From: Clostridia bacterium
GTDB lineage: Bacteria > Bacillota > Clostridia > Christensenellales > Borkfalkiaceae
Reading direction: 5' to 3'
Assembly (NCBI GenBank): GCA_028720205.1
Contig: JAQYLE010000014.1
Coordinates: 1-64,000, forward strand
Length of the DNA stretch: 64,000 nt
This document shows, piece by piece, positions 1,051 to 31,075 of this stretch. Position numbers and translations under genes: made by a program. Every line of letters begins with the position of its first letter. Position 1 is the stretch's first letter. The notes beneath the pieces are model-generated. The model saw only the letters and a program-made list of their open reading frames with translations. It was not told the origin of the DNA and ran no database searches.

Positions 1051-1376
1051 CTAGCAAACGGGAAAGAATACGTCTTCCGTCAAGCACTCTTTATCGAGCC
1101 AACTTCGGATTACCGAAGCTTTTTGACTACACCCAATCACGCCTACGGCAATATGTTTCTTTTTATTCAGACCATCGGCAATATGAAATCCCAAAGCGGA
1201 AAACCTCAACAGCTTTTTTTCGTTGCGACTTGCCAGCCGTCCGCACTATGCAATCTTTTATGTTTTTCTATCCGATCGGAAACGAAAAATCTTATGTTTT
1301 CTTTTTCTTCGACGTTCTCCGAATCAATTTCTTCTCCGACTTCAAACCGTGCGTTCGATACCGTACCGCTGTTCAT
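1051..1376 (-). pseudogene. Remnant of a sialate O-acetylesterase-like gene, frameshifted
   Basis: An ATG at 1376 overlaps the stop of the regulator gene (ATGA). It opens a 56-codon frame ending at 1206 that contains ENIRFFVSDR and HSADGWQVATKK. At a run of seven A (minus strand, 1214-1220) a shift of one base continues as KLLRFSALGFHIADGLNKKK and then HIAVGVIGCSQKASVIRSW before a stop at 1051-1053. This order (IR-F, W, FSA-GF, GVIG-S, W) matches the middle of SASA-domain sialate O-acetylesterases as I recall them. The N-terminal GQSN block and the C-terminal half are absent. I read it as the decayed stump of an esterase gene that once continued the operon. The alternative is a real small translationally coupled ORF (1206-1376). 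Confidence 0.5.
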
Positions 1377-2461
1377 AAGGTACTGTTGCGACAAATAAGA
1401 TAGGAAGATATTTTCTTCACGCTTTTCCCGTACGGCTCGCCGTTAATCTGTCGGAGTAAAATTTTCATTGCCTCTTCTGCTATCTCCTTAGTAGAATAAT
1501 GAACCGTCGTAAGCGAGTGCATCGAATCATTAACGACGCTCAGATCGTCAAATCCAACAATCCCGATCTCTTGTGGAACAACAAAATTCCATTTGCGGCA
1601 CGACCGAAGAACCGTCATGGCAAGCAAATCGTTATTACAAAAAACGGCAATCGGATGTTCTTTTTTCAAAATCGCTTTCGCAATCGTATTTTCCATAAAC
1701 GAATCGAACTCGTTATCGATATAAATAACGTCGTCCGAAGAAAAATCGATTGACTCAGCTTCGAGCCAAGCCCGATACCCCGCCAATCGTTCATCCTCGC
1801 CGTTATGCAAAATCTCCTGAGAAACATACAAAAAACTACGGTAGCCTTTTCGGTAAAGAAATTTCGCCACCTGTTCCCCCGCACTTCGGTTATCAACGAC
1901 GACGCAATCGTTTTCTAACCCAGATATTCTGTTAGATAAAAACACAGTTGGCAATGTATATTTTTCGTAAACTTCGAAAAGTTGTTTATTCCTTCCGGGA
2001 CAACTGAGCACACCGCTCCCGCCCAACCGTTCGAATAAATTCAAGGCTTCCGCTTCTTCTTCGTAACTGTACCCGCTACTGCAAATAACAGTATTGTAGC
2101 CGTTTTTTCGGCAAACCGTCTCCAGGCTTCGCGCCAATGCCGCAAAATACGGACTTTCCAAATTTGGTAAATGTATCCCGATCAACCGTCTGTGAACGAG
2201 TTTCTTATGATAAACCGTATTTGAACCGATCACTCCGTACGTCAGAAAAAATTTTTTTCCGATGAGTTCTATTAATTTTTTCCGGCGTAACTCGACGGTA
2301 ATTCTTTGCGCGCTTACCAAAGAAATTTCGTATTTCCGGCTTAATACGCGCGTAGATAAAAAAAGTTCGCCGGGTTTTCCGAATTTACCCCCTAAAATTT
2401 CATTCTCCAGATTTGCGCTTAAACGTTCGATTTTATTCCGTCCGTTTCCTCTCGAATTCAT
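1373..2461 (-). CDS. GntR-type HTH / LacI-type sensor transcriptional regulator
   Basis: This 362-residue protein has an N-terminal winged helix (about residues 10-70, with LSTRVLSRKYEISLVSAQRI) joined to a periplasmic-binding-protein-like effector domain (RLIGIHLPNLESPYF, then NDLLAMTVLRSCRKW and GIVGFDDLSVV). It ends in the usual YLICRNST strand. That architecture is known from AraR-like sugar regulators, so it probably controls the preceding operon in response to a sugar. ATG 2461 is chosen because AAAAGGT precedes it and it lies four bases after the stop of the esterase gene; a TTG at 2479 would extend it by six residues. The operator was not identified. Being last in the operon, the gene is likely co-transcribed with the genes it controls. 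Confidence 0.85.
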   Translation of the reverse strand: MNSRGNGRNKIERLSANLENEILGGKFGKPGELFLSTRVLSRKYEISLVSAQRITVELRRKKLIELIGKKFFLTYGVIGSNTVYHKKLVHRRLIGIHLPNLESPYFAALARSLETVCRKNGYNTVICSSGYSYEEEAEALNLFERLGGSGVLSCPGRNKQLFEVYEKYTLPTVFLSNRISGLENDCVVVDNRSAGEQVAKFLYRKGYRSFLYVSQEILHNGEDERLAGYRAWLEAESIDFSSDDVIYIDNEFDSFMENTIAKAILKKEHPIAVFCNNDLLAMTVLRSCRKWNFVVPQEIGIVGFDDLSVVNDSMHSLTTVHYSTKEIAEEAMKILLRQINGEPYGKSVKKISSYLICRNSTL

Positions 2462-2465
2462 CTTT

Positions 2466-3572
2466 TTACCTTTTAACAATTTCTTTTAACTTCTCTGTCA
2501 TACTGTCCGCCATAAGCATAAAACCACAGTCCGTAGGATGGATTCCGTCTACCGTATACTCGGTAAATTCCTCTCCGAACAATTCTCCGAAATCCAAGAA
2601 CCAAATTTTCTCGTCGCCCGCCCGACGTGCTTTTTCTATTACCTCTATCTCAAATGCTTTTGCCTCCTCCCGCCTCGCGCAAAAATACTCGTCCCAGTAA
2701 TCCGCACTCTGCTTTGTACCCGATACTATCAAAACAGGCGTTTGTTTATGCCGTTCCCTCAGAATCCGGATAAAAACGGGTAAAGAAGATTTTAACGTCC
2801 CTTTTTCGATGGCGTTAGGTTCGTAATCGAGAACGTACGCCGCAGGCGATTCTATCATAGCCAGACGATTCGCTATACACGATTCCCCGAAAGCATTTCC
2901 GGAAAAGCCAAAATTCAAACACTCCATACGCAGTCTACGTGAGACGATGTTAGTATACGCCATTCCCGGACGAGAGGCGCAACCGCCTTGCAAAATAGAG
3001 GATCCGTAAAAAACGAGTCGCCCGTTTTTCCGAAACTCCGTGTACGGTATTATTTCCGCATCAGATTCGATGCCGATTAAAAATTCCTTTACCTCGGCGT
3101 ACAGCGGAAAATAAATTAAAATCGTCCGCTTTTTTTTAGGTAAGTGATGAAAAAACGTATACACGTATTCAGAGCGATCCGTAGAAAATTTTGTGGCACC
3201 GAAAAAAACAAACCTCTCCGTTTTTTCATCCAGCAAATAGCAGTCCGCTCCGCACTGTCCTAAAGGGGACATATTAAACATATCGGGGCGGGTTCCCAAA
3301 GACACTTTGATGCTTAACGAAGGGCTGTCGGTAACGAATTGTATCTGTCCGCCGGCTGCACATTTCGCTCCCCAGCGGAGTGAAAGGCTGATTTGTTCTG
3401 CCTCTTTCATCCCCGCATCGTCGAACTTATAAAAATGTCCGTTGCTTACGCCGAATCCAAAACCGAGCAGACAGACCTTTTGATCGTCTTGCGCCGATAT
3501 CGCGCGATACCCCTCAAAATTTTCATCGTTCGACGAAGCCATATTTTTATCCGCTTTTCCCGCTTCGTTCAC
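2466..3572 (-). CDS. SGNH/GDSL-type esterase with N-terminal GxDLY-like domain
   Basis: The N-terminal half is a beta-rich domain with GADCYLLDE, matching the GxDLY-type domain that precedes some SGNH hydrolases. The C-terminal half has the SGNH blocks in order: VFYGSSILQG (nucleophile Ser), NFGFSGNAFGE, DYEPNA, and DGIHPTDCGF with the catalytic Asp/His. No signal peptide is visible, so it is probably cytosolic and removes acetyl or other acyl groups from imported sugars. The GTG start at 3572 follows GGGAG at a six-base gap. It lies between the GH1 gene and the regulator in the same operon. Substrate unknown; family assignment firm. Confidence 0.85.
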   Translation of the reverse strand: MNEAGKADKNMASSNDENFEGYRAISAQDDQKVCLLGFGFGVSNGHFYKFDDAGMKEAEQISLSLRWGAKCAAGGQIQFVTDSPSLSIKVSLGTRPDMFNMSPLGQCGADCYLLDEKTERFVFFGATKFSTDRSEYVYTFFHHLPKKKRTILIYFPLYAEVKEFLIGIESDAEIIPYTEFRKNGRLVFYGSSILQGGCASRPGMAYTNIVSRRLRMECLNFGFSGNAFGESCIANRLAMIESPAAYVLDYEPNAIEKGTLKSSLPVFIRILRERHKQTPVLIVSGTKQSADYWDEYFCARREEAKAFEIEVIEKARRAGDEKIWFLDFGELFGEEFTEYTVDGIHPTDCGFMLMADSMTEKLKEIVKR

Positions 3573-3614
3573 AGTTTTCTCCCTTTTGTCTATTAATATC
3601 GGAACAATACCGTT

Positions 3615-4973
3615 TTAGACGGGTTTTCCTCCATGATGCAGTATCGTGCCGTTCCCTGCAACCACGGCTGAATAATATTCCGCACTTTTTTTCGGCGTTC
3701 GCTCCATCGTTTTATAATCCACATATACCAAACCGAACCGTTTGGAATATCCTTCCGTCCATTCGAAATTATCCATAAAGGACCAATAAAAATAACCTCT
3801 TACGTCTATGCCGTCGTCTATCGCTCTCTCTAACTCTTTAAGATAACGTCTGATATAATCGATTCGCGAATAATCGAGAATTTCGCCGTCTTCATCTTTC
3901 CATTCGCTCAAAGCAACGCCGTTTTCCGTAATGACAATGGGAACGCGGTACCTATCGTAAAAATATTTACTTCCGTAATACAGACTTTCTGGCGTAAGGT
4001 TCCAATTCGTGGCGCTTCTACCGACTTCGGGATGCGGAAAAACCTTTTTAAGTCTTCCGTTGATATCCCGATCGGTCGGTCTGCCGTGATATATATTTAA
4101 ACCTATAAAATCTTGTTTTCTGCATATTTTTTCCATATCGCCTGCCCGAATCTCGATTTCTTCTCCGAACGCGCGATAAATTTCTTCGGGATATTTTCCG
4201 AAGACGACGGGATCTACAAACCATGCGTTATTGAACATTGTGCCGTTATAGCTGAAAGCAAGTTTTTCTGCATCCGCTTCGTCTTCTTTACAGGAAGGCA
4301 ACGGCAAAGCGCAAGCGTGCGTCATACCGAGCCTTGCTCCGGATACGTTGTTTCGGATCAAGTCGCAGGCATTCCCGTTTGCGAGCAGAAGATTATGCGC
4401 CGCCGTCAGGACGTCTTTTGTACACAACTTAAGATAAGGACTGTGATTCCCTTCCATCAATCCGCAGCCGATGATACATTCAGGTTCGTTAAAAGTAAAA
4501 TAGTTCTTTACTCTGTCCCCGTAGAAACGGGTTACTTTATCGGCATATTCCCCGAACCATTCCGCCATATCGCGATTGAGAAACCCTCCCTTTTTATAGA
4601 GTGCATAAGGAAGTTCCCAGTGATATAAAGTGAGGTAAGGCGTGATGCCGTTTTTTAACATTTCGTCAATCAGGCGATCGTAAAAATCCTTTCCTTTAAC
4701 ACTGATTTTCCCGATTCCTTCGGGGAACAGACGCGCCCAGTTTACCGAAAAACGGTAATGACGAATTCTGAGTTTCGCCAGCAGCGCCAGATCTTCCGCA
4801 TAGCGGTGATAATGGTCGCACGCCGTATCGCCCGTGTGTCCCTCGAAAATGTATTTTTTGCTTTTCGAACTCACGTCCCAGATACACTCTCCCTTATCTG
4901 CTTCGTAAGCGGCGCCTTCGATTTGATACGCCGAAGTCGCGACTCCCCAGATAAAATCCTTTCCGAAAGACAT
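3615..4973 (-). CDS. GH1 family beta-glycosidase
   Basis: The 452-residue protein has the normal length of a bacterial GH1 (beta-glucosidase, 6-phospho-beta-glucosidase and relatives). It begins with FIWGVATSAYQIEGA, carries the acid/base motif TFNEPE near residue 165 and the nucleophile motif VITENG near 350, and ends with the family-typical SKRFGLVYVDY and RTPKKSA. There is no signal peptide, so it acts in the cytosol on imported disaccharides or short oligosaccharides. ATG 4973 follows a strong GGAGGAG site. It sits directly after the GH94 phosphorylase gene, suggesting that both enzymes share the breakdown of the same imported glycan. The exact sugar cannot be read from sequence. Confidence 0.93.
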   Translation of the reverse strand: MSFGKDFIWGVATSAYQIEGAAYEADKGECIWDVSSKSKKYIFEGHTGDTACDHYHRYAEDLALLAKLRIRHYRFSVNWARLFPEGIGKISVKGKDFYDRLIDEMLKNGITPYLTLYHWELPYALYKKGGFLNRDMAEWFGEYADKVTRFYGDRVKNYFTFNEPECIIGCGLMEGNHSPYLKLCTKDVLTAAHNLLLANGNACDLIRNNVSGARLGMTHACALPLPSCKEDEADAEKLAFSYNGTMFNNAWFVDPVVFGKYPEEIYRAFGEEIEIRAGDMEKICRKQDFIGLNIYHGRPTDRDINGRLKKVFPHPEVGRSATNWNLTPESLYYGSKYFYDRYRVPIVITENGVALSEWKDEDGEILDYSRIDYIRRYLKELERAIDDGIDVRGYFYWSFMDNFEWTEGYSKRFGLVYVDYKTMERTPKKSAEYYSAVVAGNGTILHHGGKPV

Positions 4974-5009
4974 TTCTCCTCCTTTTGTTGCCTTTTCCGA
5001 ATCGCCGTT

Positions 5010-7538
5010 TCAGCAAATTATTTTTATCAGATTTTGCGCCTGCAATTCTTCTCTGTAAATCAAGGTCTTCTTTCTTCCCGTCACGGGGTCTGTGACGGGC
5101 GTTCCCGTTTCTTTTCCGTCAAGCAGAACGGAAACGATTTTCCCAGAATCCGCTTTTTCTCTGTTCTCCTCGGAATTTTCTATTTCAAGGCGTATTTTTT
5201 TACCGTCGTAGGAAAAATCGACTTCTATGTGTTTGAAACGTTTGGAAATACAGGGCGAAAGCAACAATCCCTCCGTAGAATATCCGATACCGACAATCCA
5301 ATTATACACCAAACGTTCGGACATTGCAACTGTTCCGGTTAAAAAAGGCATAGCCGCACGATGATAAAAATACGGAACACCCTGATAACAGTTAACGATT
5401 GCATAAGGCGCGCTCTTAGTGATCCGCACGGGATGACGCGTCTGATCGTAAGGAAACAAATATTCGAGAACGTCGTAAGCCTCTTCCGCTTTGCCCGACA
5501 CCGTAAGCGCTCTTCCCAAAAATCCGTGCGAACCGTGATTGTACATATTTCCGTTCGCCCAAAGACCGATAGGAATATCTCCGCTTGCCATTCGTCCATG
5601 CGAAGAAATCGGCGTTTCACCGAGTCCTTCCGAAAACAGCTTATAACCGAATTCGTATTTGAGCTTCTCGATGTTTTTCCAGATCGAATCTTCTCTCTGT
5701 TTATTCACCGTTCCGGAAATAATCGCATAATAATTGCTCGGTCCGTACACCCTTTCTTTCCCGTCCGGATCGCAGTCGCTGAACAGCCAATTTCCTTCGT
5801 CGTTAAAGACGCTGTTCATAAAACCGTGCTCGTTAAAGGCAAACCTGTTCAGCTGATTCTTGAATTCTTCCGCAATCGCATTATAGCGTACGGTCAGTTC
5901 TTCCGTATCGCACGAAATAACAACGGTTTCCTTTGCTTTTTTCAAAAGCAAAGGAATAAGTTTTAAGGACATAATCAACTGTTCCGTCGCCATTACGGAT
6001 TCACCGCGTCCTTTCAAACCGGCACGATTTACGCTGTCCAGCCAGTCCCCGCCGTATATTTTCACCAAACCGTGCTCTCCGATATTTTCGGGCGCAAGAT
6101 AATAGAAAAACGTCGATAGTATATGTTCCTCCAAAGGAGAACGGAATTCGTCGTCAAGCCAGGGAAGTTTTTCTTCGAAAACGGTATAATCGCACGTCTG
6201 CGTGACGTATTCGTACAAAAATTCCAAAACGAAAACGCCGCCGTCGCAAAAATTCCGCATATCGTGCGGTCCTTTCGGCGAAACGGTAGATACCTGTCTC
6301 GGATACCATCCGTCTTTACGTCTCTGACAGGAAATCAACGAAAGCAACGTCTGCCTGGACCATTCGGGATAAAGAGGGATAATCCCCATAAAATCGTTGG
6401 AAGCGTCTCGCGTACCGTGCATTCCCGTCGGCCAACCGCGATCCAAACACGCCGTCCAATACATTTGCAAGGGCAAAAAAGTATTTACGTAATAATCGAA
6501 CATCGGCTCGCCCGTCAAAACGGTGCGTTTGGAAAACAGATCGTCGTAGAATCTCTCCCATTTTTTCTCTTCCTCTAAAACAGTCTCCTCCCGATCATAC
6601 GCATATAATCGGCGATTCGCCGCAGAATCGTACGTTTCTCCGTCGAACATAATCAGCGTCTGCGTAAAAATACGGCTTTCATTCGGTAAAAGATCGAATT
6701 GGTAACGGCAAGCATAAACGGGCGGAAAACCGAAAACGGTATTTTCTCGATCAAAAACGCCGGGTTCGGTGCAGACGTTTTCTATGTCGATGGCAAGTTT
6801 CCCCCGTTTAACAGATTCCGGAAGGACGAAATCTCCGTTGCCGACGTAATTTTCCAAACTGATCTCGCACTGCGTTTCCGGCAGAAGATCCGCTGTGAAA
6901 GCAACGGCACGGCGCTCCGTCGGATCCGCCTTAGAACTGAAAAGTTTCGTAAAGAAAACTGCTTTATTTCCATCTTTCGATGCCATACTTTCCAAATACC
7001 ATTCGTATTTGTCCCAAGGCGTAAGGTACGCTTTGTTCACATACGGATAAAGTGCCGGATAGCCTTCTACGCGCACTTTTTTCTCCGTCTTATTCGTTAT
7101 TTTCGTCCGCATTACAACGGCAGTCCCGTGAAAAGGAAGAAGCACCGTCGTCTCTACTTCATGCGTTCCGAAATCGTATCGGTAAACGGCTTTTTCCGGG
7201 GAAAACTCGATCCTCGCTTCTGGCGTTACGGAAAAATAAGCGTTTAGCGGGTTATGAAAATTAGAAAAGGGAATTCCTCCGTTAAATTCCGTGCATTTGA
7301 AAAGCATATTCCATTTGGAATACCTATCGGAAAGTTCCCGGCGAAAGAGCACGATATCGTGTGGAGGACGGGCTTGACAATTCACCAATCCAAACTGATC
7401 TACGCGTAACAAAACGTCTCTGTTCTGATAAATATATTCCCACGGATAATTCAGTTCTTCAGGGTGTGTGATTACGTAAGTGCCGTGCTTTTGAAGATCG
7501 AAATAACCGTATTCGCTTTTTACGTTTTCATTATTCAT
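5010..7538 (-). CDS. GH94 family glycoside phosphorylase (cellobiose phosphorylase-like)
   Basis: GH94 enzymes split beta-glucosides with inorganic phosphate, releasing a sugar 1-phosphate. This 842-residue protein has the family length and order: an N-terminal beta-sandwich from YGYFDLQKHGTYVIT, then an alpha/alpha barrel with MHGTRDASNDFMGI (the Asp aligning with the catalytic acid of the usual RD-QD motif), YGGDWLDSVNRAGLKGRGES, and RVYGPSNYYAIISG. It has no signal peptide. ATG 7538 is preferred over GTG 7547 because GGGTG lies eight bases upstream. The start overlaps the end of the DUF4838 gene by eight bases. Acceptor and donor specificity (cellobiose, chitobiose, laminaribiose and others) cannot be assigned. 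Confidence 0.88.
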   Translation of the reverse strand: MNNENVKSEYGYFDLQKHGTYVITHPEELNYPWEYIYQNRDVLLRVDQFGLVNCQARPPHDIVLFRRELSDRYSKWNMLFKCTEFNGGIPFSNFHNPLNAYFSVTPEARIEFSPEKAVYRYDFGTHEVETTVLLPFHGTAVVMRTKITNKTEKKVRVEGYPALYPYVNKAYLTPWDKYEWYLESMASKDGNKAVFFTKLFSSKADPTERRAVAFTADLLPETQCEISLENYVGNGDFVLPESVKRGKLAIDIENVCTEPGVFDRENTVFGFPPVYACRYQFDLLPNESRIFTQTLIMFDGETYDSAANRRLYAYDREETVLEEEKKWERFYDDLFSKRTVLTGEPMFDYYVNTFLPLQMYWTACLDRGWPTGMHGTRDASNDFMGIIPLYPEWSRQTLLSLISCQRRKDGWYPRQVSTVSPKGPHDMRNFCDGGVFVLEFLYEYVTQTCDYTVFEEKLPWLDDEFRSPLEEHILSTFFYYLAPENIGEHGLVKIYGGDWLDSVNRAGLKGRGESVMATEQLIMSLKLIPLLLKKAKETVVISCDTEELTVRYNAIAEEFKNQLNRFAFNEHGFMNSVFNDEGNWLFSDCDPDGKERVYGPSNYYAIISGTVNKQREDSIWKNIEKLKYEFGYKLFSEGLGETPISSHGRMASGDIPIGLWANGNMYNHGSHGFLGRALTVSGKAEEAYDVLEYLFPYDQTRHPVRITKSAPYAIVNCYQGVPYFYHRAAMPFLTGTVAMSERLVYNWIVGIGYSTEGLLLSPCISKRFKHIEVDFSYDGKKIRLEIENSEENREKADSGKIVSVLLDGKETGTPVTDPVTGRKKTLIYREELQAQNLIKIIC

Positions 7539-9318
7539 TTGCTTCACCCAAATATTTCTTTTTCCATTCGGCGATCTTAACTTTCATTTCAGGCCCGCCT
7601 ACTTTCACGCCTCCCCCCGTTTTAAACCTCGTCACACCTGTTATTCGGGCAAGGCATTCGAATTCCGAGATCATCTTCGACAATTCTTTCGGCGTATATC
7701 GATCGTGGTAAAGCTCCAAGCGCATATAATGAACAAACAAACTTTCTCTTAAAACGCGTAAACGCAACTTTTCTGTCAAGTCGTCCGAATCGCATGTTAA
7801 AACGCTTCTCAACGCTTCGTTAAGATCGTTTTCGCATTTGTCGAGAAACTCTTCACCGAAAATTTCGCGCGTAAACGCTTTCGCGCCCGTATTCCACGGA
7901 CAATAAGCGTGAAAAGGATGTTCGGGAGTATCTTTCGTATTATAGTTATCTTTTATCCTTTCGTAATATGCCATCATATAAGGGGCTGCGACTTTATAAT
8001 AATGTTCGAAAAACTCGTTTTTCAATGCCGAAACGTCTGCTTTTACATTCCACATTAAGGCGGAATGTAAATAAATTTTCAGATAGTGAAAAGTATCGGG
8101 AGAATTAAAAATTCCCTGATTGAAAATGTAAACGACTCCGTATTTCTTAAACGTTTCGTACGTACTCACCACCGTATTGTAATTATTCAGAGGTACAAGA
8201 TAACCCGCATAATTCGAACTGTAACACCAGACTAATAATTTATCAGACGTTGCCGACCATCCCAGCAGATTGTTCCGTACTTTCAGATTGCAAGTCTTGT
8301 TCATAATATCATGCGTAAAACAGGTGAAAATGGGAGCAAACATAACGCCTACGTTATGACGCGCCTTTACTTTTTCGTCTCTCAGACGGAAAGAATCCGT
8401 ATCTACGTCGTACTCTGCAGGCGGTTCTTCCGTTTTGCAATAGGCGAACGTAACGAGAAGAATTTCCCTCTCGGGAAATTCTGACGCAGCAATCTTTTTC
8501 TCTATCTCTTCGGCGACTTTATTGACGAATACCATCATAGTACCCGAGCGCCCGCCGTACTTCTGATGAGAGGCACGGCAACGCTGGCAATCGCAAAACG
8601 TATCGTCGTCTTCCTGACCGAGCATAAAATACTCCGCCGCCGGTTTATCGCAAATAATCTGCCAAAGATTATCGACGAATTGTTTAAGCATTTCATCGTT
8701 CGTCAGACAAAGCTGAGTTTTATCCGCACTGTACCAATCCGGGTGTTCTTCTGCATATTTTTCGGGCGGAAGAATAAGAAAATGCGTATGCGCCCAAAGT
8801 CCCCAGTTTCCATGGTCGTGAAGCACTCGTTTACAATAGGCGAAAGATTTGTCGTTCATCGTGCCGAAGTAGCCCAGCATTCTCGTTTCGAAATCGGGCA
8901 CGTTCCGATAAAACCCGAGCGGTAATTCTAACCGATCGGTACGCGGACAAAACGTTTCGTCCGGAGCCAAAAATCTTACTCCTAAAAACTTCTCTAAAAA
9001 TTCAACCGTTGCGTTTACGGTTCCGTCCTCGTCGTCGCCGTACAAATATACGGCGCCCGTCCGCACGTCGATATTAAATGCGTCTCGTTTTTTCTCGCGT
9101 GTTTTGTCTTTCAGAAGCGCAGCAAGTTTCTCGGTCTCTCCGACGGAAATAAAATTCCCTGTACTGTCTTCTTGTATTTCCTCTAATTCCACCCCGCAGC
9201 ATTCGTAAAAACACTTTTTCAGCAATTCAATAGCATATGCCGTCTTTTCACCGCATTCCTTCGGATATATCAAACCGAACGAAGTCCGTCCTCCGTCAAT
9301 CAACACCACGTTTTTCAT
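7531..9318 (-). CDS. DUF4838 domain protein, cytosolic paralogue
   Basis: This 595-residue protein is a close paralogue of the lipoprotein encoded just upstream; both share NWGLWAHTHF, HPDWYS, QLCLTN, EYFMLGQED followed by two CxxC-like cysteine pairs, and VTFAYCKTE. DUF4838 proteins have an N-terminal domain like that of GH67 alpha-glucuronidases and are common in glycan-use loci, but their activity is not known to me. Unlike its neighbour this copy starts directly with MKNVVLIDGGRT and has no signal peptide. ATG 9318 overlaps the upstream stop as TAATG, indicating coupled translation, and alignment with the paralogue supports this start; ATG 9339 is possible. Confidence 0.82.
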   Translation of the reverse strand: MKNVVLIDGGRTSFGLIYPKECGEKTAYAIELLKKCFYECCGVELEEIQEDSTGNFISVGETEKLAALLKDKTREKKRDAFNIDVRTGAVYLYGDDEDGTVNATVEFLEKFLGVRFLAPDETFCPRTDRLELPLGFYRNVPDFETRMLGYFGTMNDKSFAYCKRVLHDHGNWGLWAHTHFLILPPEKYAEEHPDWYSADKTQLCLTNDEMLKQFVDNLWQIICDKPAAEYFMLGQEDDDTFCDCQRCRASHQKYGGRSGTMMVFVNKVAEEIEKKIAASEFPEREILLVTFAYCKTEEPPAEYDVDTDSFRLRDEKVKARHNVGVMFAPIFTCFTHDIMNKTCNLKVRNNLLGWSATSDKLLVWCYSSNYAGYLVPLNNYNTVVSTYETFKKYGVVYIFNQGIFNSPDTFHYLKIYLHSALMWNVKADVSALKNEFFEHYYKVAAPYMMAYYERIKDNYNTKDTPEHPFHAYCPWNTGAKAFTREIFGEEFLDKCENDLNEALRSVLTCDSDDLTEKLRLRVLRESLFVHYMRLELYHDRYTPKELSKMISEFECLARITGVTRFKTGGGVKVGGPEMKVKIAEWKKKYLGEANE

Positions 9319-11237
9319 TACAGTAAATTTTTTCTCCATTCGGTAATTTTCTTGGATAAATCCGGACCGCCGACGATGCCGTCTGCAGACACATACCGGG
9401 TAACTCCGCACTCATAGGCGTCCGCCTCAAAAGAATCTATCAATTCTTCAAGCTGCGTCACGGTATAGTAAACAGGGTAAAGTTCCAGAATCATATATCG
9501 TGCATAGAGAGATTCGCGCTTTGTCCGCTTCAATATTTTATTGCGTTCTTCCACGTCTTCTATTTTCGCTATTTCTTCATAAGCTCTTTCAAAAATCGAA
9601 AGACATTGATTAAGCAACGATTTCGGCCAATATGCAGACGTCAACGTTAAAACACCCAGATTCCACGTGCAATAAGTATGGAAAGGATCGTTTTTTTCTT
9701 TGCCTTCTTTTTCCAACGCAATATAATGCGTCTTAATAAGTTCGTAATATTCCCTTACGTAGGGAGCCGCCTGTTTATAATAAGCTGAAAAGAACGCATC
9801 TTCCAGTTCCGTAACGCTTTGTTCCGGGTTCCAGAGCATTTTCGAATGAATATATACGCGCAAATCGTGGAAACTGTCGTAGGAATTATATATGCCCTGA
9901 TCGTATATATAAACAACCCCGTTTTCGCGGAAAGCACTGTAATCCGCTTTTAGCGAAGAATAATTATTGAACGGTTGAAGATATGCAGCATAGTTGGAAG
10001 AGTACGTCCAGACCATCAGTTTCGCTGAAACCGCCGCCCAACCCAACAAAGCGGTACGCGAAAGGGCGTTACAGTTTTTGTCGAGTATATCGTGTGAAAA
10101 ACAAGCGTAAATCGGAGCGAACATAACGCCTACGTTATCCGCCGCAACAACCCTCTCGTTAACGGGACGGTAACTGTCCGTCGCCTCGTCGTACGTCGTC
10201 GGAGCAGATTCCGTCTTGCAATATGCAAACGTGACTAACGTTACGTTTCGTTGCGGGTTCGTCTCCTTCAGCCATTTTTTTATTTCCGCAGCAACTGAAT
10301 TGACGAAAATCATTTGCGTGCCGCTCTCTCCTCCGTTTTCTGCGTTGGAAGCCCTGCACCTACCGCAAGTGCAAAAAGTGTTCTGATCTTCCTGCCCCAG
10401 CATAAAATATTCGGCATTCGGTTTTTCCGCAATAATCGTCTTGAGATTTTCGATGAATTTTGCTTTCATCTCTTCATTCGTCAAACAAAGTTGCGTACCG
10501 TCCGAACTGAACCAATCGGAATGATCCGTCTTGTAAGATTTTCCCGGTTCAAGATCGTAATTAATAATGGTGAAGTGGGTGTGAGCCCAAAGCCCCCAAT
10601 TCCCTACGCCTTCTCCCAAACGCATCCGCAAGGCATTATTCCGGTCTCCCTGCGTAGCTAAATAGCCGAGAGCTCTCTCTTCGAATGCCGGACGGATTTC
10701 TTCGGAATACTTATATAACGGCACATCCGTATATTCCGGCACCACGATTTCGTCGGCGGCATAAAAACAGACGCCGAGCGTCGTTTCCAGAAACTCGTAA
10801 ACGGCAAAAAGCGTACCGTCTCCTCCATATCCCGCCATAATCAGGTCGTTACCCGAAAGGACAAGATAAAATCCGTCGTCGCCGAGACGCGAATAGGAAA
10901 CTTCCAGTCCGGAAGATTGCAGAAGATCCGTTCCCCCCACGGAGAGATATTTCCCCTCCGAAGAAGTTTCGTACGTCGTTTCCAGACGAACCCCCGTGGA
11001 TTTTTCCATATACGTCGTCAGTTCTTCCGCCGCGTACCTTTCCCGATCGGACGGAATACGCGGAAGCAATATACGATAATCCGTCCGCCCGTTCTCTACG
11101 AGTTTGATCCCGCTTTCTTCATACTTCGGAGTCGTATTCGACGAACCGCCTCCCGGAGAAGTTCTTCCGCTTTCTCCGCACGATCCCCCGATTATCGCTA
11201 TTAACGCTGCCAGCAGGCAACAAATCATTTTTTTCAT
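9318..11237 (-). CDS. DUF4838 domain lipoprotein
   Basis: The 639-residue product begins with a lipoprotein signal (MKKMICCLLAALIAIIGGSC, lipobox Cys about 20) and a Gly/Ser linker, so it should be anchored on the outer face of the membrane. The rest aligns with the following gene: VENGRTDYRILLP, NWGLWAHTHF, QLCLTNEEM, EYFMLGQEDQNTFCTCGRC and VTFAYCKTE. The conserved acidic and aromatic positions suggest a carbohydrate-active enzyme of the GH67-like type, but no catalytic pair is established. AGGCGG precedes the ATG. The extracellular/cytosolic paralogue pair suggests stepwise handling of one substrate outside and inside the cell. Confidence 0.85.
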   Translation of the reverse strand: MKKMICCLLAALIAIIGGSCGESGRTSPGGGSSNTTPKYEESGIKLVENGRTDYRILLPRIPSDRERYAAEELTTYMEKSTGVRLETTYETSSEGKYLSVGGTDLLQSSGLEVSYSRLGDDGFYLVLSGNDLIMAGYGGDGTLFAVYEFLETTLGVCFYAADEIVVPEYTDVPLYKYSEEIRPAFEERALGYLATQGDRNNALRMRLGEGVGNWGLWAHTHFTIINYDLEPGKSYKTDHSDWFSSDGTQLCLTNEEMKAKFIENLKTIIAEKPNAEYFMLGQEDQNTFCTCGRCRASNAENGGESGTQMIFVNSVAAEIKKWLKETNPQRNVTLVTFAYCKTESAPTTYDEATDSYRPVNERVVAADNVGVMFAPIYACFSHDILDKNCNALSRTALLGWAAVSAKLMVWTYSSNYAAYLQPFNNYSSLKADYSAFRENGVVYIYDQGIYNSYDSFHDLRVYIHSKMLWNPEQSVTELEDAFFSAYYKQAAPYVREYYELIKTHYIALEKEGKEKNDPFHTYCTWNLGVLTLTSAYWPKSLLNQCLSIFERAYEEIAKIEDVEERNKILKRTKRESLYARYMILELYPVYYTVTQLEELIDSFEADAYECGVTRYVSADGIVGGPDLSKKITEWRKNLL

Positions 11238-14066: not shown

Positions 14067-14094
14067 ATTATTTTCCCTCAAAATCCGTCGAAAC

Positions 14095-22342: not shown

Positions 22343-22377
22343 ATTTTCGCTTTTCCCGATTATTTTATCCGCACGAT

Positions 22378-22425
22378 CTCCGGAAAGGGTTTCACCGTTC
22401 CGGAGAACGCGCCGTCCGTCCCGTT
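22378..22425 (-). promoter_or_regulatory. Two hairpins between the giant surface-protein genes
   Basis: In the gap between the two giant-protein genes an 8-bp perfect stem (CTCCGGAA at 22378-22385 with TTCCGGAG at 22398-22405) is followed by a short stem GTCCC/GGGAC around 22418-22432. No T-run follows on the minus strand, so these look like RNA processing or stability elements rather than a terminator. This would help set different amounts of the two surface proteins. Inference only. Confidence 0.4.
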
Positions 22426-22457
22426 CGGGGACGATTAACAATTTAATTTTCCGTAGG

Positions 22458-25748: not shown

Positions 25749-25804
25749 TTTTTTTCCTCCATAAATTAATATTATTAAAGCGGTTTCCCGTTTTAATTTC
25801 AGAT

Positions 25805-26881
25805 TTACATAAATACAGGTCTGCCCGTTTCGATACTGTCATACACTGCAAGCATCGCCCGTATAGTATTTCTATGGTGCTTCAGATTAATCATAGGCGT
25901 TTTTCCCGTTCTGATGCACTCCACAAACTCGTCTATCAAGCCTACCCATTCGTCAAAATAGGTATATTGTACTGTATATCTTTCTTTCGGCGCCGTGTTA
26001 TGATAAATATTGGGGCCGAAACAATCCGCCATAAGGCTTCCTTTTTCACCGTGCAACGTTACGTTCACTTCCATTCGTTTAGGGTTAATCTCCCAGCCGC
26101 GGACGGGTTTTTTTATTCTTTCTTCCGATTTTCCCCAAGACGGATCGAGCGAAAATACCGTCCCGTCTTTCATTCGTCCCGTCACGCAAAGCATATCCTC
26201 TTCCTCGAGGTCTTTCCGAATATTCGGCGCCGCTTGCGCGAAAATCATTTCGAATTCGCTTCCCGTTACAACCCGGATCAGATCGAAAATATGCGGATGA
26301 TCGCACAACGCTCCTCCGCGATAACGGGAATCCCCCGGTTTAAGCGCGCGTCTGCAACCATAACTGTATTCCGGCTTTCCCTGCCAAGGGAAAGCCCATG
26401 CCGGGCACAGAGTCACGTTGGTGGCGTTAAAAGAAAGAAGTCTTCCGATTTTCCCGTTCTCTTTTAATTCTTTCAAGCGTTTCACAACGGGATTATAATG
26501 TAATTCCAGTTCCACTTGACAAACGATATGATTTTTCTCTACGAGTTCTTCCATTTCGTCGTATTCTTTCATGTCGAACGTAGGAATCTTCATTGACAAA
26601 ATATGAACTCCGCGTTCTGCGCAAAGCCTCATCTGTTTTAAATGTTCGCTGTTTTCGCTAGCTATGACGACCGCTTCGATTTCCGGATGCGCGGAAAACA
26701 TCTCTTCTTCCGTTTCGTAACAAGGAATGCCCTTAACGTTCTCCTCGAAAAATTCTTTTGCCAAAGGATCGCGAACCTGAACGGCAACCCAATCCAACAA
26801 CGGATTTTCGTTCAATACCTGAAAATATTTTCTCGTATGACCGTGCGTAAGAGAAAGCATGGCGATTTTAACCGGTTTCAT
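25805..26881 (-). CDS. Gfo/Idh/MocA family oxidoreductase
   Basis: This 358-residue protein has the N-terminal NAD(P)-binding fold (KIAMLSLTHGHTRKYF, then AVVIASENSEHL) and a C-terminal substrate domain with GGALCDHPHIFDLIRVVTG. The usual EKP motif is replaced by KIPTFD, so the catalytic lysine sits in an altered context. Family members oxidise or epimerise sugars and inositols; the substrate here is unknown. ATG 26881 follows AAGGAGGAGG; the longer frame to 26935 is rejected because it overlaps the preceding gene. The stop of that gene lies one base upstream, so the two proteins are probably made together. Confidence 0.88.
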   Translation of the reverse strand: MKPVKIAMLSLTHGHTRKYFQVLNENPLLDWVAVQVRDPLAKEFFEENVKGIPCYETEEEMFSAHPEIEAVVIASENSEHLKQMRLCAERGVHILSMKIPTFDMKEYDEMEELVEKNHIVCQVELELHYNPVVKRLKELKENGKIGRLLSFNATNVTLCPAWAFPWQGKPEYSYGCRRALKPGDSRYRGGALCDHPHIFDLIRVVTGSEFEMIFAQAAPNIRKDLEEEDMLCVTGRMKDGTVFSLDPSWGKSEERIKKPVRGWEINPKRMEVNVTLHGEKGSLMADCFGPNIYHNTAPKERYTVQYTYFDEWVGLIDEFVECIRTGKTPMINLKHHRNTIRAMLAVYDSIETGRPVFM

Positions 26882-26882
26882 T

Positions 26883-27584
26883 TTATTCCTCCTCCTTAAC
26901 GAGAATATTTTCGGATGAGCGATGTGAAAGTTCAACCGATTGTAAAAGTCGTTCCGTTTTTCGATATTCTCTCTCGTAATCGGTTTTATCTTTTCCCGTT
27001 ATAACGTCAAATGCCTGTCGCACCAGCGCGACTTCCTCTTCGTCCAGCCCGAAAAGCTCGAAATCGTTATCGGTATACGTTTCTTCTTCCTCGCTGAAAA
27101 GATATACGGACCGCTGACGATATTGCGTGTCTATCGCTTTGTCGCATACGATTCCCGAAGAAGAGATTGCCTCGTGCTTATCCGTCTCCGCTTCTTTTCG
27201 GCGAAGCGTAAAACCAAGTTCTATAACGCCGACGTAACCTTTTTTCGATTTTATCAGCAAATTTGTCGCGACGTCGTTGCGTACTGTAAAAATTTCGGCA
27301 ACATCGTCTCCCGTCAACCATCCGAACAAATCGATTTCTTTTCTGACCGCTTCTCTCTTATTGGCGGAACATAACCTGACGGACATGGCGCGATACATAC
27401 TCATCCCTTCAAAATACGGCGAAGCGATAATATTTTTCATCTCCGTAAAACGTCGTTCTCTGCGCCAAGGGAGCAACGGAATTTTCTTCCCTCCCGTAAA
27501 GAGCGTATTGCCGCAAAGTTCCGCCTCTTTTTCCGAACCGTATTTCTGCAATAAATCCCTCAATTTCAAATTAAGTTTATCCAT
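26883..27584 (-). CDS. Unrecognised protein, resembles an isolated Gfo/Idh C-terminal domain
   Basis: I do not firmly recognise this 233-residue soluble protein. Its middle part (IDLFGWLTGDDVAEIFTVR, then GYVGVIELGFTL and KHEAISSSGIVCDKAID) runs like the C-terminal beta-sheet domain of Gfo/Idh/MocA oxidoreductases: D-WL-G followed by a glycine-rich strand pair and H-E-I--G. No Rossmann N-terminus is present. Its gene sits one base before that of a complete Gfo/Idh/MocA enzyme. It may form a mixed dimer with that enzyme, or be a degenerate relative. GGAG lies eight bases before ATG 27584. No signal peptide or membrane span. Confidence 0.6.
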   Translation of the reverse strand: MDKLNLKLRDLLQKYGSEKEAELCGNTLFTGGKKIPLLPWRRERRFTEMKNIIASPYFEGMSMYRAMSVRLCSANKREAVRKEIDLFGWLTGDDVAEIFTVRNDVATNLLIKSKKGYVGVIELGFTLRRKEAETDKHEAISSSGIVCDKAIDTQYRQRSVYLFSEEEETYTDNDFELFGLDEEEVALVRQAFDVITGKDKTDYEREYRKTERLLQSVELSHRSSENILVKEEE

Positions 27585-27623
27585 AAATTAACTCCGATTT
27601 ATTCTTCGCCATGCATACGTCGG

Positions 27624-28382
27624 TTACAGCATTTTTATTCTGCCGTCGTATTTTTCAAGATAAGCGCGGTTTTTCTCGTCTCCGCCCGGTACGTTTGCAC
27701 TGTTCCAAACCGGAGGCGTCAACCCGCGTCGCAAACACTCCTGCACCGTAGCAATTTCTAATTCATGCGCGATATAAAAATCTGCGATATTGGAAACGGG
27801 GCCGACGGCGGCATCAAGGCCGGGTACATTGACTACTGCATCGCCGACGGGATTGTAATCGTCTATACATATTTCTGCAAAATCGAACAGATTTTTTCCT
27901 GACGGATGACGGATAAAATGATCCGCGGGAATTTCCGACTGCCATTTTCCGCTGGATACGGCGATGATTCTCACGCCGTTATCATACGCTTCTTTCGCGG
28001 CGTCTATTGTTGCAGGATTAATGCCGATATTATGAAAAATAATCAGAACGTCCCCTTTTTGCAGGTGATAATATTTCATAATGGATCTGCCGTAATTAAC
28101 CGTCCGTTCCAGTTCCAGATATTTTTTCGCCTGATTGAACACAGAAAGCCCCGTTTCCATAATTGGATTGATGTTGGCAAGCCCGCCTGCGCGGAAAAAC
28201 ATCTCGCCCACGCAAAGCGTAGTGTGCCCGCCGCCGGCATACACGTTAATCAGGCGGTCTTGGGCAATCGCGTCCGCCATTATTTCCGCCGCTTTACGGA
28301 TATTGTCCGCCTGTTTTTCATTGATTTCCCGTAAATTCTTCAATATGAATTCAAAATAGCCGTAATCGTTTAATTTTTCCAT
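27624..28382 (-). CDS. SIS-domain sugar isomerase-like protein (UPF0309 type), copy 2
   Basis: This 252-residue protein contains a single SIS (sugar isomerase) domain of UPF0309 type: helix-rich N-terminus, then INVYAGGGHTTLCVGEMFFR, FRAGGLANINP, GDVLIIFHNIGINPATIDAA and GVRIIAVSS. SIS domains bind phosphosugars. It is a paralogue of the SIS protein encoded two genes upstream, but the usual FGCGHSH is changed to YAGGGHTTL, so substrate may differ. ATG 28382 has GGAGG and lies inside the end of the kinase gene (13-base overlap); the longer upstream frame is antisense-like. Probably converts or senses a sugar phosphate made by the neighbouring kinase. Confidence 0.86.
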   Translation of the reverse strand: MEKLNDYGYFEFILKNLREINEKQADNIRKAAEIMADAIAQDRLINVYAGGGHTTLCVGEMFFRAGGLANINPIMETGLSVFNQAKKYLELERTVNYGRSIMKYYHLQKGDVLIIFHNIGINPATIDAAKEAYDNGVRIIAVSSGKWQSEIPADHFIRHPSGKNLFDFAEICIDDYNPVGDAVVNVPGLDAAVGPVSNIADFYIAHELEIATVQECLRRGLTPPVWNSANVPGGDEKNRAYLEKYDGRIKML

Positions 28383-29269
28383 AAACTTTCCTCCGATACT
28401 TGGTAAACAGCACGCACTTCTTCTAACCGCAAAGCGCATGACGCTCCTTTTTTTGTTGCCGTAATTCCGCCGGCAACCACCGCTTTTTTCAGCGCCGTTT
28501 CTTCTTTGTCTCCAGCGGCAAGGAAATAGGCAAACGCTCCGCAAAAGGCGTCACCGGCTCCCGTCGTATCCACCGCCTCCACCGTAATTGCCTTTACCCT
28601 CGTTTTTCTGTTCCCGAAACGGGCTTCGGCGCCATCTGCGCCCAACGTTACTATCAGATTTTTGGCTTCTTCCGCACCGACGATATGTTCGCGCTCGAAA
28701 CGGTTGGGCAACAGGTAATCCACTTTATAAATCTGCTCTTTCGTAACGCGATCGGCGGGTGCGGGATTATATAAAACGGGTACGCCGACTTTCTTTGCGG
28801 CATCGATTGCCGCATCGATAGCCCCGGTGGGAATTTCTGCCTGCAATAATAACAGATCGCATTCCGAAATTGTCTTGGCAAAACTTTCCACATCGCTTTC
28901 GGTCAATGCGTCGCTCGCACCCCGATATACGGTAACGGCATTTTCACCTTTTCTATCGGTCAGAATGGTTGCAAACGCCGTCGGAACGTTTTTTTTCGCG
29001 GGAAACGCTTTTACGCCTTCCTCCTTCAACCGCTGCAAGCATCTCTCCCCGTCTCCGTCTTCTCCAACCGCCGTCAGAAAGTTCGCTTCGCCGCCCAATT
29101 TTGCAATCGTTACGGCTTGATTGAACCCTTTTCCGCCGTATTCCGTAAAAATTTCTTCCGCCGTGACGGTCTCCCCCATCGCGGGAAAATTCTTCACACG
29201 CATAAATACCGATTTTCCCGAAAGTCCAATTACGGCAATTCTAGGTTTTGTTTTTATTGTTTCGCTCAT
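28370..29269 (-). CDS. PfkB family sugar kinase (ribokinase-like)
   Basis: The 299-residue protein has the ribokinase fold: IAVIGLSGKSVFMRVKNFP, YGGKGFNQAVTIAKLGG (substrate lid region) and VDTTGAGDAFCGAFAYF with the catalytic Asp and anion hole. It phosphorylates a sugar or nucleoside with ATP; the substrate is unknown. ATG 29269 overlaps the stop of the first SIS gene (ATGA) and its own 3' end overlaps the second SIS gene, so the SIS-kinase-SIS trio is translationally linked. The trio suggests phosphorylation and isomerisation of one imported sugar. Confidence 0.9.
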   Translation of the reverse strand: MSETIKTKPRIAVIGLSGKSVFMRVKNFPAMGETVTAEEIFTEYGGKGFNQAVTIAKLGGEANFLTAVGEDGDGERCLQRLKEEGVKAFPAKKNVPTAFATILTDRKGENAVTVYRGASDALTESDVESFAKTISECDLLLLQAEIPTGAIDAAIDAAKKVGVPVLYNPAPADRVTKEQIYKVDYLLPNRFEREHIVGAEEAKNLIVTLGADGAEARFGNRKTRVKAITVEAVDTTGAGDAFCGAFAYFLAAGDKEETALKKAVVAGGITATKKGASCALRLEEVRAVYQVSEESLWKN

Positions 29270-29988
29270 TTTAAACAGGATACCCTTTTTTCATAGCGCT
29301 TTATTAAACGGAGATTTTTCTCGGCTCCTCCCTCTATGTTCCCACTGACGAACACGGGCGGCTCGATCCCTCGTGCAATCATCTTTCCAACAGCTTCGCT
29401 GACGATGCTCTCCAGTATCGCCGTCACTGTAATCGTCGATAACGGTGCGCAAACGGTATTTCCCGCTCTGATTCCCGCGTCGCCTTTCGGACAACGATTG
29501 TCGAAGACAAGATCGCAACATTCATACAGATGAACGCCGCCTTCTGCACGCGACTTCTCTTCGTCATACGCTCTCGACGTGATTCCCACCGTATATGCGC
29601 CGCGTCTTTTCGCTTCCTGCGCCGCCTGCACCGGTACGCCGTTGATTCCCGAAACGGAAACGACGATAAATATATCTTTCTTGGAGAAGTTGTATTTTTC
29701 CAAGAACTGAACGGCTCTTCCATTCATTCTTTCAAGGCGGGAAGATGTCACGGCTCCTTGATGAAGCATAAGTTCTTCCGAAAAAATCGGATAAACGTTT
29801 GCCAATCCTCCCGCACGATAGAAACATTCTTCCGCAGCCATATGCGAATGCCCGCAACCGAAAATATAGATCAAACCGTCTTTTTCCACCGTATCTGCAA
29901 ACTTTTCCGCCAGAAATATTATCTTATCGCGATCCGTCGCTTCGATTTCGTTCAGCTTATCTCGGACGATTTCAAGATATTCTATCAT
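29266..29988 (-). CDS. SIS-domain sugar isomerase-like protein (UPF0309 type), copy 1
   Basis: This 240-residue protein is the more typical of the two SIS proteins: LIYIFGCGHSHMAAEECFYR, FRAGGLANVYP, KDIFIVVSVSGINGVPVQA and GAYTVGITS. UPF0309 members are small cytosolic SIS proteins with suspected sugar-phosphate isomerase activity. The start ATG 29988 overlaps the stop of the TIM-barrel gene (ATGA); the ribosome site is weak, as expected for coupled translation. Its product probably works with the PfkB kinase encoded next. Confidence 0.87.
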   Translation of the reverse strand: MIEYLEIVRDKLNEIEATDRDKIIFLAEKFADTVEKDGLIYIFGCGHSHMAAEECFYRAGGLANVYPIFSEELMLHQGAVTSSRLERMNGRAVQFLEKYNFSKKDIFIVVSVSGINGVPVQAAQEAKRRGAYTVGITSRAYDEEKSRAEGGVHLYECCDLVFDNRCPKGDAGIRAGNTVCAPLSTITVTAILESIVSEAVGKMIARGIEPPVFVSGNIEGGAEKNLRLIKRYEKRVSCLK

Positions 29989-31016
29989 TTTTTCTTGACC
30001 CGATTGTAATTTTCGCCTATGCGATCCCAAAGTTGTAAGGGATTTTCCGCCTGAACCACCGTACCGTATCCGCCGCGATAAGTCCACGTAGCAAGTCTGT
30101 CTACGCCCATATTTTCATATAGAGAGACGACACGATCTACCTGCGCAAGATCTTTGGGCGATTTGTTGTAACCCATAATCCAGCGTTCCGATTGTTTATT
30201 GTATTTTCGGGCTGTTTTTACCGTTCTCTCCGTAATATCGATAAAGAATTTTTCAGGCAGATCCCAGCTGATGATCGTCGTGGAAAACACATCGAAATAG
30301 GGGCAACTCGCCACTAAATCCCAATTGTCGTACCCCCGAAGTTCAGTGACGTAATATGTATTCATCGTTGCATGTACGCAACAGGTAATTTCCAGTTTCG
30401 GATTATATTCTTTCAGCGCTTTGCTTGTTTCGGTGAGAATCACCATTGCTTCGCGCCAGCGAAATTGTTTTACGTCATCGTTCATCATTCTCGGCATTTC
30501 ATATCCGTAATAATCCAAGAACTTTTTCTTGCAGACGGGGCACCGACAAGACCAGTCGTCACCCGCGCCTCCCGTAATGGAGGCATAACTTTTAGGATAA
30601 GCGTAGTGCGGCTCGTCCCAGAAAAACCCGTCCACTTCGGTGTTTTGCGCAATTTTCAGACAAAAATTTTTAAAATAATCGCGGAAAGAGGAAGTATTAA
30701 AACAAGCAAAATTTAAAACTTCATCGGTAAAAGCCGATACCTGTCGGTTATGTATATTGTTTTGTAAGAACAGACTCACCTGTTCTCCCCCGAAATATTT
30801 TCCGATTCCCCATGGATCTGCAATGGCTCTTAACCCAATTTCATGCGCTTTTTTTACAATGTTGTTAAGATTAGGAAACCAAAAATCAAGATCAAATTCG
30901 GTAACGGCCAGAATAACGGTATCGCAACCATGTTCTTTCATCTCCCTGAAATCCCTTTCCGCTTGTTCCGTATAACCCAATCCGTAATAGCTTACCGCCG
31001 TATGTTTGATAGACAT
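29985..31016 (-). CDS. TIM-barrel putative glycoside hydrolase
   Basis: The first gene of the operon encodes a 343-residue soluble protein without signal peptide. Motifs: AVSYYGLGYTEQAERDFREM near the start, VDGFFWDEPHYAYP with an Asp-Glu pair at the end of a strand, then WSCRCPVCKKKFLDYYG, a cysteine-rich loop often seen in hypothetical TIM-barrel glycosidases. I recognise the general fold but not a named family. ATG 31016 follows GGGAGG at a six-base gap. As the leading cytosolic gene it may hydrolyse or rearrange the imported sugar. The alternative is a non-catalytic TIM-barrel protein. Confidence 0.7.
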   Translation of the reverse strand: MSIKHTAVSYYGLGYTEQAERDFREMKEHGCDTVILAVTEFDLDFWFPNLNNIVKKAHEIGLRAIADPWGIGKYFGGEQVSLFLQNNIHNRQVSAFTDEVLNFACFNTSSFRDYFKNFCLKIAQNTEVDGFFWDEPHYAYPKSYASITGGAGDDWSCRCPVCKKKFLDYYGYEMPRMMNDDVKQFRWREAMVILTETSKALKEYNPKLEITCCVHATMNTYYVTELRGYDNWDLVASCPYFDVFSTTIISWDLPEKFFIDITERTVKTARKYNKQSERWIMGYNKSPKDLAQVDRVVSLYENMGVDRLATWTYRGGYGTVVQAENPLQLWDRIGENYNRVKKK

Positions 31017-31046
31017 ATGATTCCTCCCGACCATTTTCTGCCCCTT

Positions 31047-31075
31047 ATCTTATCATAGATTCCTTTTCCAGTCAA
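31047..31075 (-). promoter_or_regulatory. Candidate promoter of the 30-kb glycan operon
   Basis: On the minus strand TTGACT (31070-31075), a 17-base spacer and TAAGAT (31047-31052) lie about 30 bases before the first start codon. The -35 matches 5 of 6 and the -10 matches 4 of 6. The upstream 60 bases are very AT-rich and hold TGTATAACA, a short dyad that could belong to an operator. Weak but well placed. Confidence 0.5.

Follow-up and report, generated by a model that had tools for sequence, protein, structure and literature searches.

A sugar-importer operon of a Christensenellales bacterium carrying a conserved five-gene core with a lectin-like giant protein and a DUF4838 lipoprotein

The stretch of DNA analyzed here, the first 64,000 nucleotides of contig JAQYLE010000014.1 (hereafter the window), corresponds to contig C14 in the metagenome-assembled genome of an uncultured gut bacterium (1.94 Mb, 82 contigs) from the family of Candidatus Borkfalkia, a genus assigned by NCBI to the Christensenellales. 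It carries an operon of 18 intact open reading frames (ORFs), all on the minus strand, running from 31034 down to 1373. The results described below reveal that the conserved unit of this locus is a five-gene core rather than the whole set of 18 genes; the core encodes a solute-binding protein (SBP) and two permeases of a CUT1 sugar importer, an exported giant protein of ~1000 amino acids (aa), and a DUF4838 protein, in that order. The operon is probably a Gram-positive polysaccharide utilization locus (gpPUL) standing on this core, in which a dedicated, transporter-linked lectin and the DUF4838 protein would play a role comparable to that of SusD and the surface glycan-binding proteins (SGBPs).

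The original prediction, made from the sequence of the window, took the combination of three related giant surface proteins with the enzymes and importer encoded beside them for an undescribed type of gpPUL. The survey of related loci, in which the giants proved to be conserved together with DUF4838 and the importer, supports this. The three giants (giant1, giant2, and giant3, the last being the core member) are correctly called related because they share a module of ~250 aa, present in two copies in each, even though no Pfam family was matched by them in the scan of the operon proteins. When 201 genomes sampled from the family were searched with a profile of this module, 86 contained it, a single genome giving as many as 14 matches; such matches count domains rather than cassettes. 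Around the module matches, mainly strong ones spread over the genomes, 60 regions were fetched, together with 20 control regions of similar length from the same genome set. DUF4838 was found in 57/60 module loci versus 1/20 controls (Fisher p 2.5e-14), a CUT1 permease in 58/60 versus 3/20 (Fisher p 1.8e-12), and an SBP in 50/60 module loci. Since the loci were chosen by the module only, its association with DUF4838 and the permease is not built in. The giant has a permease gene directly upstream and a DUF4838 gene directly downstream in 49 cases, mostly only a few tens of bases away, and the strict order SBP–permease–permease–giant–DUF4838 is kept in the window and in 52 of 76 fetched module loci (the 60, further ones representing other families of the order, and one from the window's own genome), many of the other 24 being cut by contig ends or by the ORF caller. 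Two further families of the order, f18 and f32, have the same core, and a complete second core is present in the window's own genome (L145). Sampling of 391 genomes of the class revealed no module outside the order, except for two matches to an immunoglobulin (Ig)-like part. A search with a three-sequence DUF4838 profile yielded three loci, one of them in Ca. Borkfalkia stercoripullorum. The enzymes flanking the sister cassettes vary, whereas the core is constant: glycoside hydrolase (GH) families GH36, GH38, GH20, GH3, GH112, and GH94 and sialidase-type proteins appear one to three times each among 70 downstream proteins, and Gfo/Idh (7), GH2 (4), AraC (4), GH78 (2), and GH3 (2) among 53 upstream proteins.

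The lectin-like modules of giant1 span aa 46–306 and 586–862, and the Ig-like repeats of giant2 match NF047446 with 53.8 bits against a cut-off of 40. A structure model of giant3 aa 35–470 (predicted local distance difference test, pLDDT, 74.4), built, like that of the first DUF4838 protein (DUF4838a), on 7–8 sequences from the window and related loci, had as its best PDB match the ligand-binding region of SraP, a serine-rich adhesin of Staphylococcus aureus (4m00, L-lectin/cadherin; E 1.9e-11, template modeling (TM) score only 0.2). Cadherin-like and S-layer proteins followed as lower matches, as did GH16-type jelly rolls (5sv8, TM by target 0.48). In the simplest reading of the model, this stretch would comprise a lectin-like module followed by cadherin-like domains. 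The predicted arrangement, a lectin-like jelly roll and then Ig/cadherin-like domains, is that of SraP; in contrast to SraP, the giants are encoded in a sugar operon and carry two modules per protein, and the TM score is low. Neither serine-rich repeats of the SraP type nor an LPXTG anchor were seen in the giants by inspection, by which export, lipid anchors, and membrane tails were all judged as well. A C-terminal tail like that of giant1, in which Gly-Cys-Gly/Ser is followed by a hydrophobic segment and then by basic residues, is also found on surface proteins encoded at other loci (L048, L087, L092, L142, L144, and L146), and a simple pattern finds the Gly-Cys-Gly/Ser tail type in 14 of 1128 ORFs. 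The tail presumably resembles sorting signals of the cysteine type (MYXO-CTERM or Synerg-CTERM, for instance); giant1 matched no NCBIfam model of such a signal at E ≤ 1. In Ca. Borkfalkia stercoripullorum (G076, L035/L036), the giant1/giant2 region appears to be split into several ORFs, perhaps through frameshifts or assembly errors.

The model of DUF4838a (pLDDT 80.5) matched, in Foldseek, GH115 (E 3e-13), GH84 (1e-12), and GH67 (9e-11) with TM scores of about 0.4–0.5, and also GH138. Like these families, DUF4838 has an invariant Asp just after a barrel strand (Asp284, strand 277–280) within an overall fold that is similar in the model; it differs from them by having 10–14% identity and four nearly invariant Cys residues (Cys251, Cys289, Cys291, and Cys294). 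Asp284, Tyr339, Pro346, and Tyr412 are invariant in 95/95 DUF4838 sequences. By sequence, no Pfam match of DUF4838 to GH84, GH115, or GH67 rose above the cut-off, the GH67 N-terminal domain scoring 22.2 bits, below the required 24.3. A lipobox is present in 63 of 71 DUF4838 proteins encoded directly after a giant and lacking in 19 of 24 other copies, and in the window it is present in DUF4838a and absent from the second copy, DUF4838b. This split suggests that DUF4838 proteins occur in one form placed outside the cell and another form inside.

Referring to known systems, a gpPUL is defined as enzyme, transporter, and regulator in one locus (Sheridan et al. 2016, PMC5320581), and gpPULs are said to lack surface glycan-binding proteins, the carbohydrate-binding modules of their enzymes serving instead (PMC10318527). 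The present operon agrees with them in combining an ABC sugar importer (two PF00528 permeases and the SBP), carbohydrate-active enzymes, and a regulator (the LacI-type sensor protein at 1373–2479), in loci that are many per genome and varied in their enzymes. As candidate polysaccharide-degrading components, it contains GH94, GH1, and SGNH esterase proteins, usually enzymes of small glycosides, and DUF4838, which is GH-like by fold only. With transporter, enzymes, and regulator present as defined, it might be an ordinary Roseburia-type gpPUL decorated with hypothetical proteins and nothing new. This we consider very improbable: no GH family accompanies the importer as constantly as the pair of giant and DUF4838 does, and the fixed five-gene core places a lectin-like exported protein and a DUF4838 lipoprotein beside the permeases, unlike described gpPULs with no dedicated surface binder. 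An earlier description of this core was not found in the open-licence PMC literature searched for DUF4838, Borkfalkiaceae, gpPUL with lectin, and Christensenellales. A probable parallel in role is the Sus-type polysaccharide utilization locus of Bacteroidota (SusC/SusD plus SGBPs), where likewise an unvarying transporter, together with surface glycan-binding lipoproteins, is repeated with different enzymes. The importer here is a CUT1 ABC system instead, and Pfam scans detected no TonB receptor or SusD family in the 18 operon proteins.

The giants could also be adhesins, or structural proteins resembling those of biofilms or S-layers, that merely adjoin a sugar importer and attach the cells to host or plant surfaces with no part in feeding. 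The fold matches headed by SraP, the Ig-like repeats, and the many Big_2 surface proteins nearby speak for such a role; it is nevertheless improbable, because an adhesin alone needs no placement inside an importer cassette, and the giant lies between permease and DUF4838 with very short gaps, and a genome has several copies of it, located beside importers. More serious, though still on the unlikely side, is the possibility that DUF4838 is a non-enzymatic glycan-binding lipoprotein, similar to SusD or SGBPs, on a degenerate hydrolase fold, with depolymerization left to enzymes encoded elsewhere. The residue preceding Asp284 varies and is not a carboxylate in many copies, so that a carboxylate pair as in GH84 is not general, and no activity of DUF4838 (PF16126) was found in the open-licence PMC literature searched, in which the name DUF4838 occurs in one paper and the Pfam number in none. 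The invariant Asp and Tyr residues and the nearly invariant Cys residues argue for a catalytic role, and the copies that lack a signal peptide would be useless as surface binders. A further alternative, a substrate-specific version of the gpPUL reading, is that the locus salvages amino-sugar glycans of host or bacterial origin (mucin or peptidoglycan fragments), with a chitobiose-type GH94 and with SIS1 acting on an N-acetylhexosamine 6-phosphate. In its favor, both SIS proteins of the operon belong to the PRK02947/UPF0309 subfamily (cut-off 135 bits; Table 1), as does the N-acetylglucosamine 6-phosphate dehydratase NagS (SCO4393, PMC12680351), SIS1 retaining by eye the substrate and catalytic residues given for NagS; the SBP is weakly similar to NgcE; GH112, GH20, and sialidase genes lie beside sister cassettes; and the DUF4838 fold matches include the GH84 N-acetylglucosaminidases. 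On the other hand, GH94 stands closer in alignments to cellobiose phosphorylases and to 4zle (a "putative b-glycan phosphorylase") than to the phosphorylases of chitobiose, and SIS2, while keeping the catalytic His/Arg/Glu/Asp/Asn, has His/Ile in place of the phosphate-binding Ser119/Ser121. In addition, only one of four tested NagS homologues, that of Streptacidiphilus, was active, those of Clostridium and Paenibacillus failing to dehydrate N-acetylglucosamine 6-phosphate (PMC12680351). We regard an amino-sugar substrate as unlikely. Several observations also weigh against the gpPUL reading itself. The core giant has no detectable anchor, leaving its retention at the cell unexplained; no secreted endo-glycanase was recognized in the operon; the variable residue before Asp284 counts here too; and the fold matches are distant, with TM scores of about 0.2–0.5 for the module and about 0.5 for DUF4838 from models on so few sequences. 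Some uncut loci (for example, L082, L093, L105, and L131) have a truly different gene order. In favor of the reading, the five core proteins diverge in parallel (Spearman rho 0.44–0.69, with 0/499 permutations as high), as would fit their inheritance as a unit, in a comparison uncorrected for species kinship.

If the operon is a gpPUL built on the five-gene core, giant1 and giant2, through their C-terminal hydrophobic anchors, and giant3 would keep a complex glycan bound to the cell surface, where the DUF4838 lipoprotein would trim, bind, or present it. The SBP would then hand oligosaccharides to the permeases; an ATPase gene is absent from the operon, and a shared ATPase of the MsmX type is assumed. 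Inside the cell, DUF4838b, the SGNH esterase, GH1, and GH94 (by phosphorolysis) may release monosaccharides and a sugar phosphate; an unusual sugar set free in this way may be converted by the kinase, SIS, and Gfo/Idh proteins. We tentatively speculate further, regarding it as possible rather than probable, that the core is the Christensenellales counterpart of the SusCD/SGBP core, a cassette duplicated to serve one glycan each, with the lectin–cadherin protein and DUF4838 bound obligatorily to one CUT1 importer in a surface complex and the paired outside and inside DUF4838 proteins forming a new GH family. For gpPULs, no constant marker comparable to SusC/SusD is known, and it is therefore chiefly through the enzymes that they are identified. 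If the proposal is true, the lectin–DUF4838–importer core would fill this gap for a large gut order that is mostly uncultured, allowing its glycan loci to be catalogued and assigned to substrates on the basis of sequence, and DUF4838 would gain a testable role.

Table 1 Features of the glycan operon and of the neighboring DNA in the window
Feature	Position	Strand	Characteristics
Candidate operon promoter	31047..31075	-	TTGACT-17-TAAGAT, extended -10, just before first gene; consensus match only
p349, unclassified, cytosolic	29985..31034	-	First gene; motifs WDEPH, CxCPxC
SIS1, UPF0309/NagS-family sugar-phosphate SIS	29266..30087	-	PF13580; PRK02947 269 bits; 9eol E 1e-39
PfkB-family sugar kinase	28370..29269	-	PF00294 1.2e-48
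SIS2, second NagS-family SIS	27624..28544	-	PRK02947 232 bits
p233, small cytosolic putative partner of Gfo/Idh	26883..27584	-	Recurs beside Gfo in G168, G397, G118
Gfo/Idh/MocA oxidoreductase	25805..26935	-	PF01408/PF22725; inositol dehydrogenase-like, below cut-off
giant1, 1096 aa	22458..25748	-	Signal peptide by inspection; two lectin-like modules, Ig-like domains; C-terminal Ser-Gly-Cys-Gly/hydrophobic/Lys-rich tail
giant2, 1569 aa	17789..22498	-	Two lectin-like modules, OmpL47-type Ig-like repeats, C-terminal transmembrane helix + KRRKRK
CUT1 solute-binding lipoprotein (SBP), core gene 1	16152..17873	-	PF01547/PF13416 weak, near cut-off; NgcE/CPR_0540-like, weak
CUT1 permease F, core gene 2	15020..16084	-	PF00528
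CUT1 permease G, core gene 3	14095..15003	-	PF00528
giant3, 942 aa, core gene 4	11253..14081	-	Predicted exported; two lectin-like modules, Ig/cadherin-like domains; no C-terminal anchor
DUF4838a, putative lipoprotein, core gene 5	9318..11237	-	PF16126; GH115/GH84/GH67-like fold; invariant Asp284
DUF4838b, second copy without signal peptide, predicted cytosolic	7531..9411	-	PF16126; true start probably later, inside ORF
GH94-family phosphorylase, divergent clade	5010..7547	-	PF17167 102.4 bits vs cut-off 27; four active-site motifs kept
GH1 beta-glucosidase-type enzyme	3615..4973	-	TIGR03356 495 bits vs cut-off 478.5; TFNEP + ITENG motifs
SGNH/GDSL esterase, GxDLY N-terminal domain	2466..3572	-	PF14606, PF14607
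Transcriptional regulator, LacI-type sugar-binding domain, probable GntR-type DNA-binding N-terminus	1373..2479	-	PF13377
Tyrosine integrase	32929-34140		Between operon and tRNA-Leu
Serine recombinase	34311-35795		Between operon and tRNA-Leu
BspA-type leucine-rich repeat surface protein	37751-40603		Between operon and tRNA-Leu
Mob_Pre relaxase	41266-42234		Between operon and tRNA-Leu
105-bp direct repeat, 3' end of tRNA-Leu + downstream DNA	43076..43180	-	Repeated exactly on contig C2 (L163 8865-8969); candidate site of island attachment

The operon genes are transcribed in the order p349, SIS1, PfkB kinase, SIS2, p233, Gfo/Idh, giant1, giant2, SBP, permease F, permease G, giant3, DUF4838a, DUF4838b, GH94, GH1, SGNH esterase, and regulator. 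The gene content foreseen in the original prediction (SIS, PfkB, SIS, Gfo/Idh, two CUT1 permeases with SBP, two DUF4838, GH94, GH1, and SGNH/GxDLY esterase, in 18 intact minus-strand genes) was confirmed by the ORF calls, with the enzyme and transport family calls backed by Pfam and NCBIfam; its gene list has to be extended by the first gene, that for the unclassified p349, which it omitted. The gene joins of the ATGA type that it described were also seen in the start contexts as short gaps or overlaps, for example ATGA between SIS1 and PfkB at 29266–29269. Of the GntR/LacI regulator announced, the LacI-type sensor domain stood, and a GntR-type helix-turn-helix (HTH) at the N-terminus was not recognized by Pfam even at E ≤ 1. 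The remnant acetylesterase called upon for an acylated glycan was not recognized by eye in the translated frames of 640–1372 and 31034–32200, where no homology search was made. The suggestion of acylation is left with one SGNH esterase, a weak hint. Promoter-like sites in the scan were at shuffle level (16 found versus 16.1 expected), and we draw no proof of a single transcript from either the promoter or the terminator scan, both being little above shuffles.

Among the cytosolic proteins, p349 had no Pfam match at E ≤ 0.001, GHL15 appearing at E 0.03, and no significant PDB relative. Relatives of SIS2 from other genomes carrying this locus type are 72–75% identical to it, whereas the giants there are near 23–28%. 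For p233, no Pfam family was matched at E ≤ 0.001 and PDB profile matches appeared at E 0.6 only; it is possibly, on weak similarity, related to the C-terminal domain of inositol dehydrogenase-type Gfo/Idh proteins and may be a partner subunit of Gfo/Idh. The GH94 protein shares with known phosphorylases (4zle and cellobiose phosphorylases) the catalytic domain and the active-site motifs RD..D, DWxD, N..H, and TGT, which align with 4zle and/or 8ho9 and which we take to be those of the catalytic Asp and the phosphate site; it differs from them in forming a divergent clade, being 36–42% identical to copies in related genomes. GH94 alone was rejected as a marker of the locus, its close relatives occurring in few genomes and often without the core.

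Parts of the fuller version of the locus seen in the window are found again in at least five other genomes, as judged from stitched loci. SIS, SIS, Gfo, p233, core, extra giant, and LacI are found in G168, and Gfo, p233, a 68% identical p349 homologue, core, and extra giant in G118. G397 has two such loci, one with Gfo, p233, two DUF4838, core, two giant-sized proteins, and LacI (contig C6), the other with two extra giants, core, second DUF4838, LacI, and SIS (contig C15), and a regulator homologue of 40% identity lies within the same locus type in this genome. A GH94 gene (41%) accompanies two DUF4838, core, and extra giant in G151, where one permease is hidden by an antisense ORF call, and two DUF4838, core, and extra giant are present in G060 (contig C39). 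GH94 phosphorolysis is an optional accessory of this locus type. In loci L047–L106, proteins with Big_2 domains (28 of the 70 downstream proteins), some with a hyaluronate-lyase N-terminal beta domain (HL_N-beta, 10 of the 70), often follow the DUF4838 gene and may count as the sixth member of the cassette, though a less constant one.

Finally, the surroundings of the operon indicate that it likely rides on an integrated island at tRNA-Leu, together with more glycosidases. Both features expected of a tRNA island are found, that is, a duplicated tRNA 3' end (the exact 105-bp repeat) and a tyrosine integrase. No tRNA accompanies the repeat copy on contig C2, no further copy exists in the window, and contigs C14 and C2 are separate in the assembly. 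The C2 copy adjoins GH38, DUF6259, and GH106-like genes in DNA of 44.0% GC. The GC content is 42–46% over 1–43 kb of the window versus 51% to the right, and third-position GC is 44–55% in the operon genes versus 58–66% in six genes beyond tRNA-Leu. Besides the recombination and mobilization genes listed in Table 1, an HTH protein is encoded between the operon and tRNA-Leu (31000–43000).

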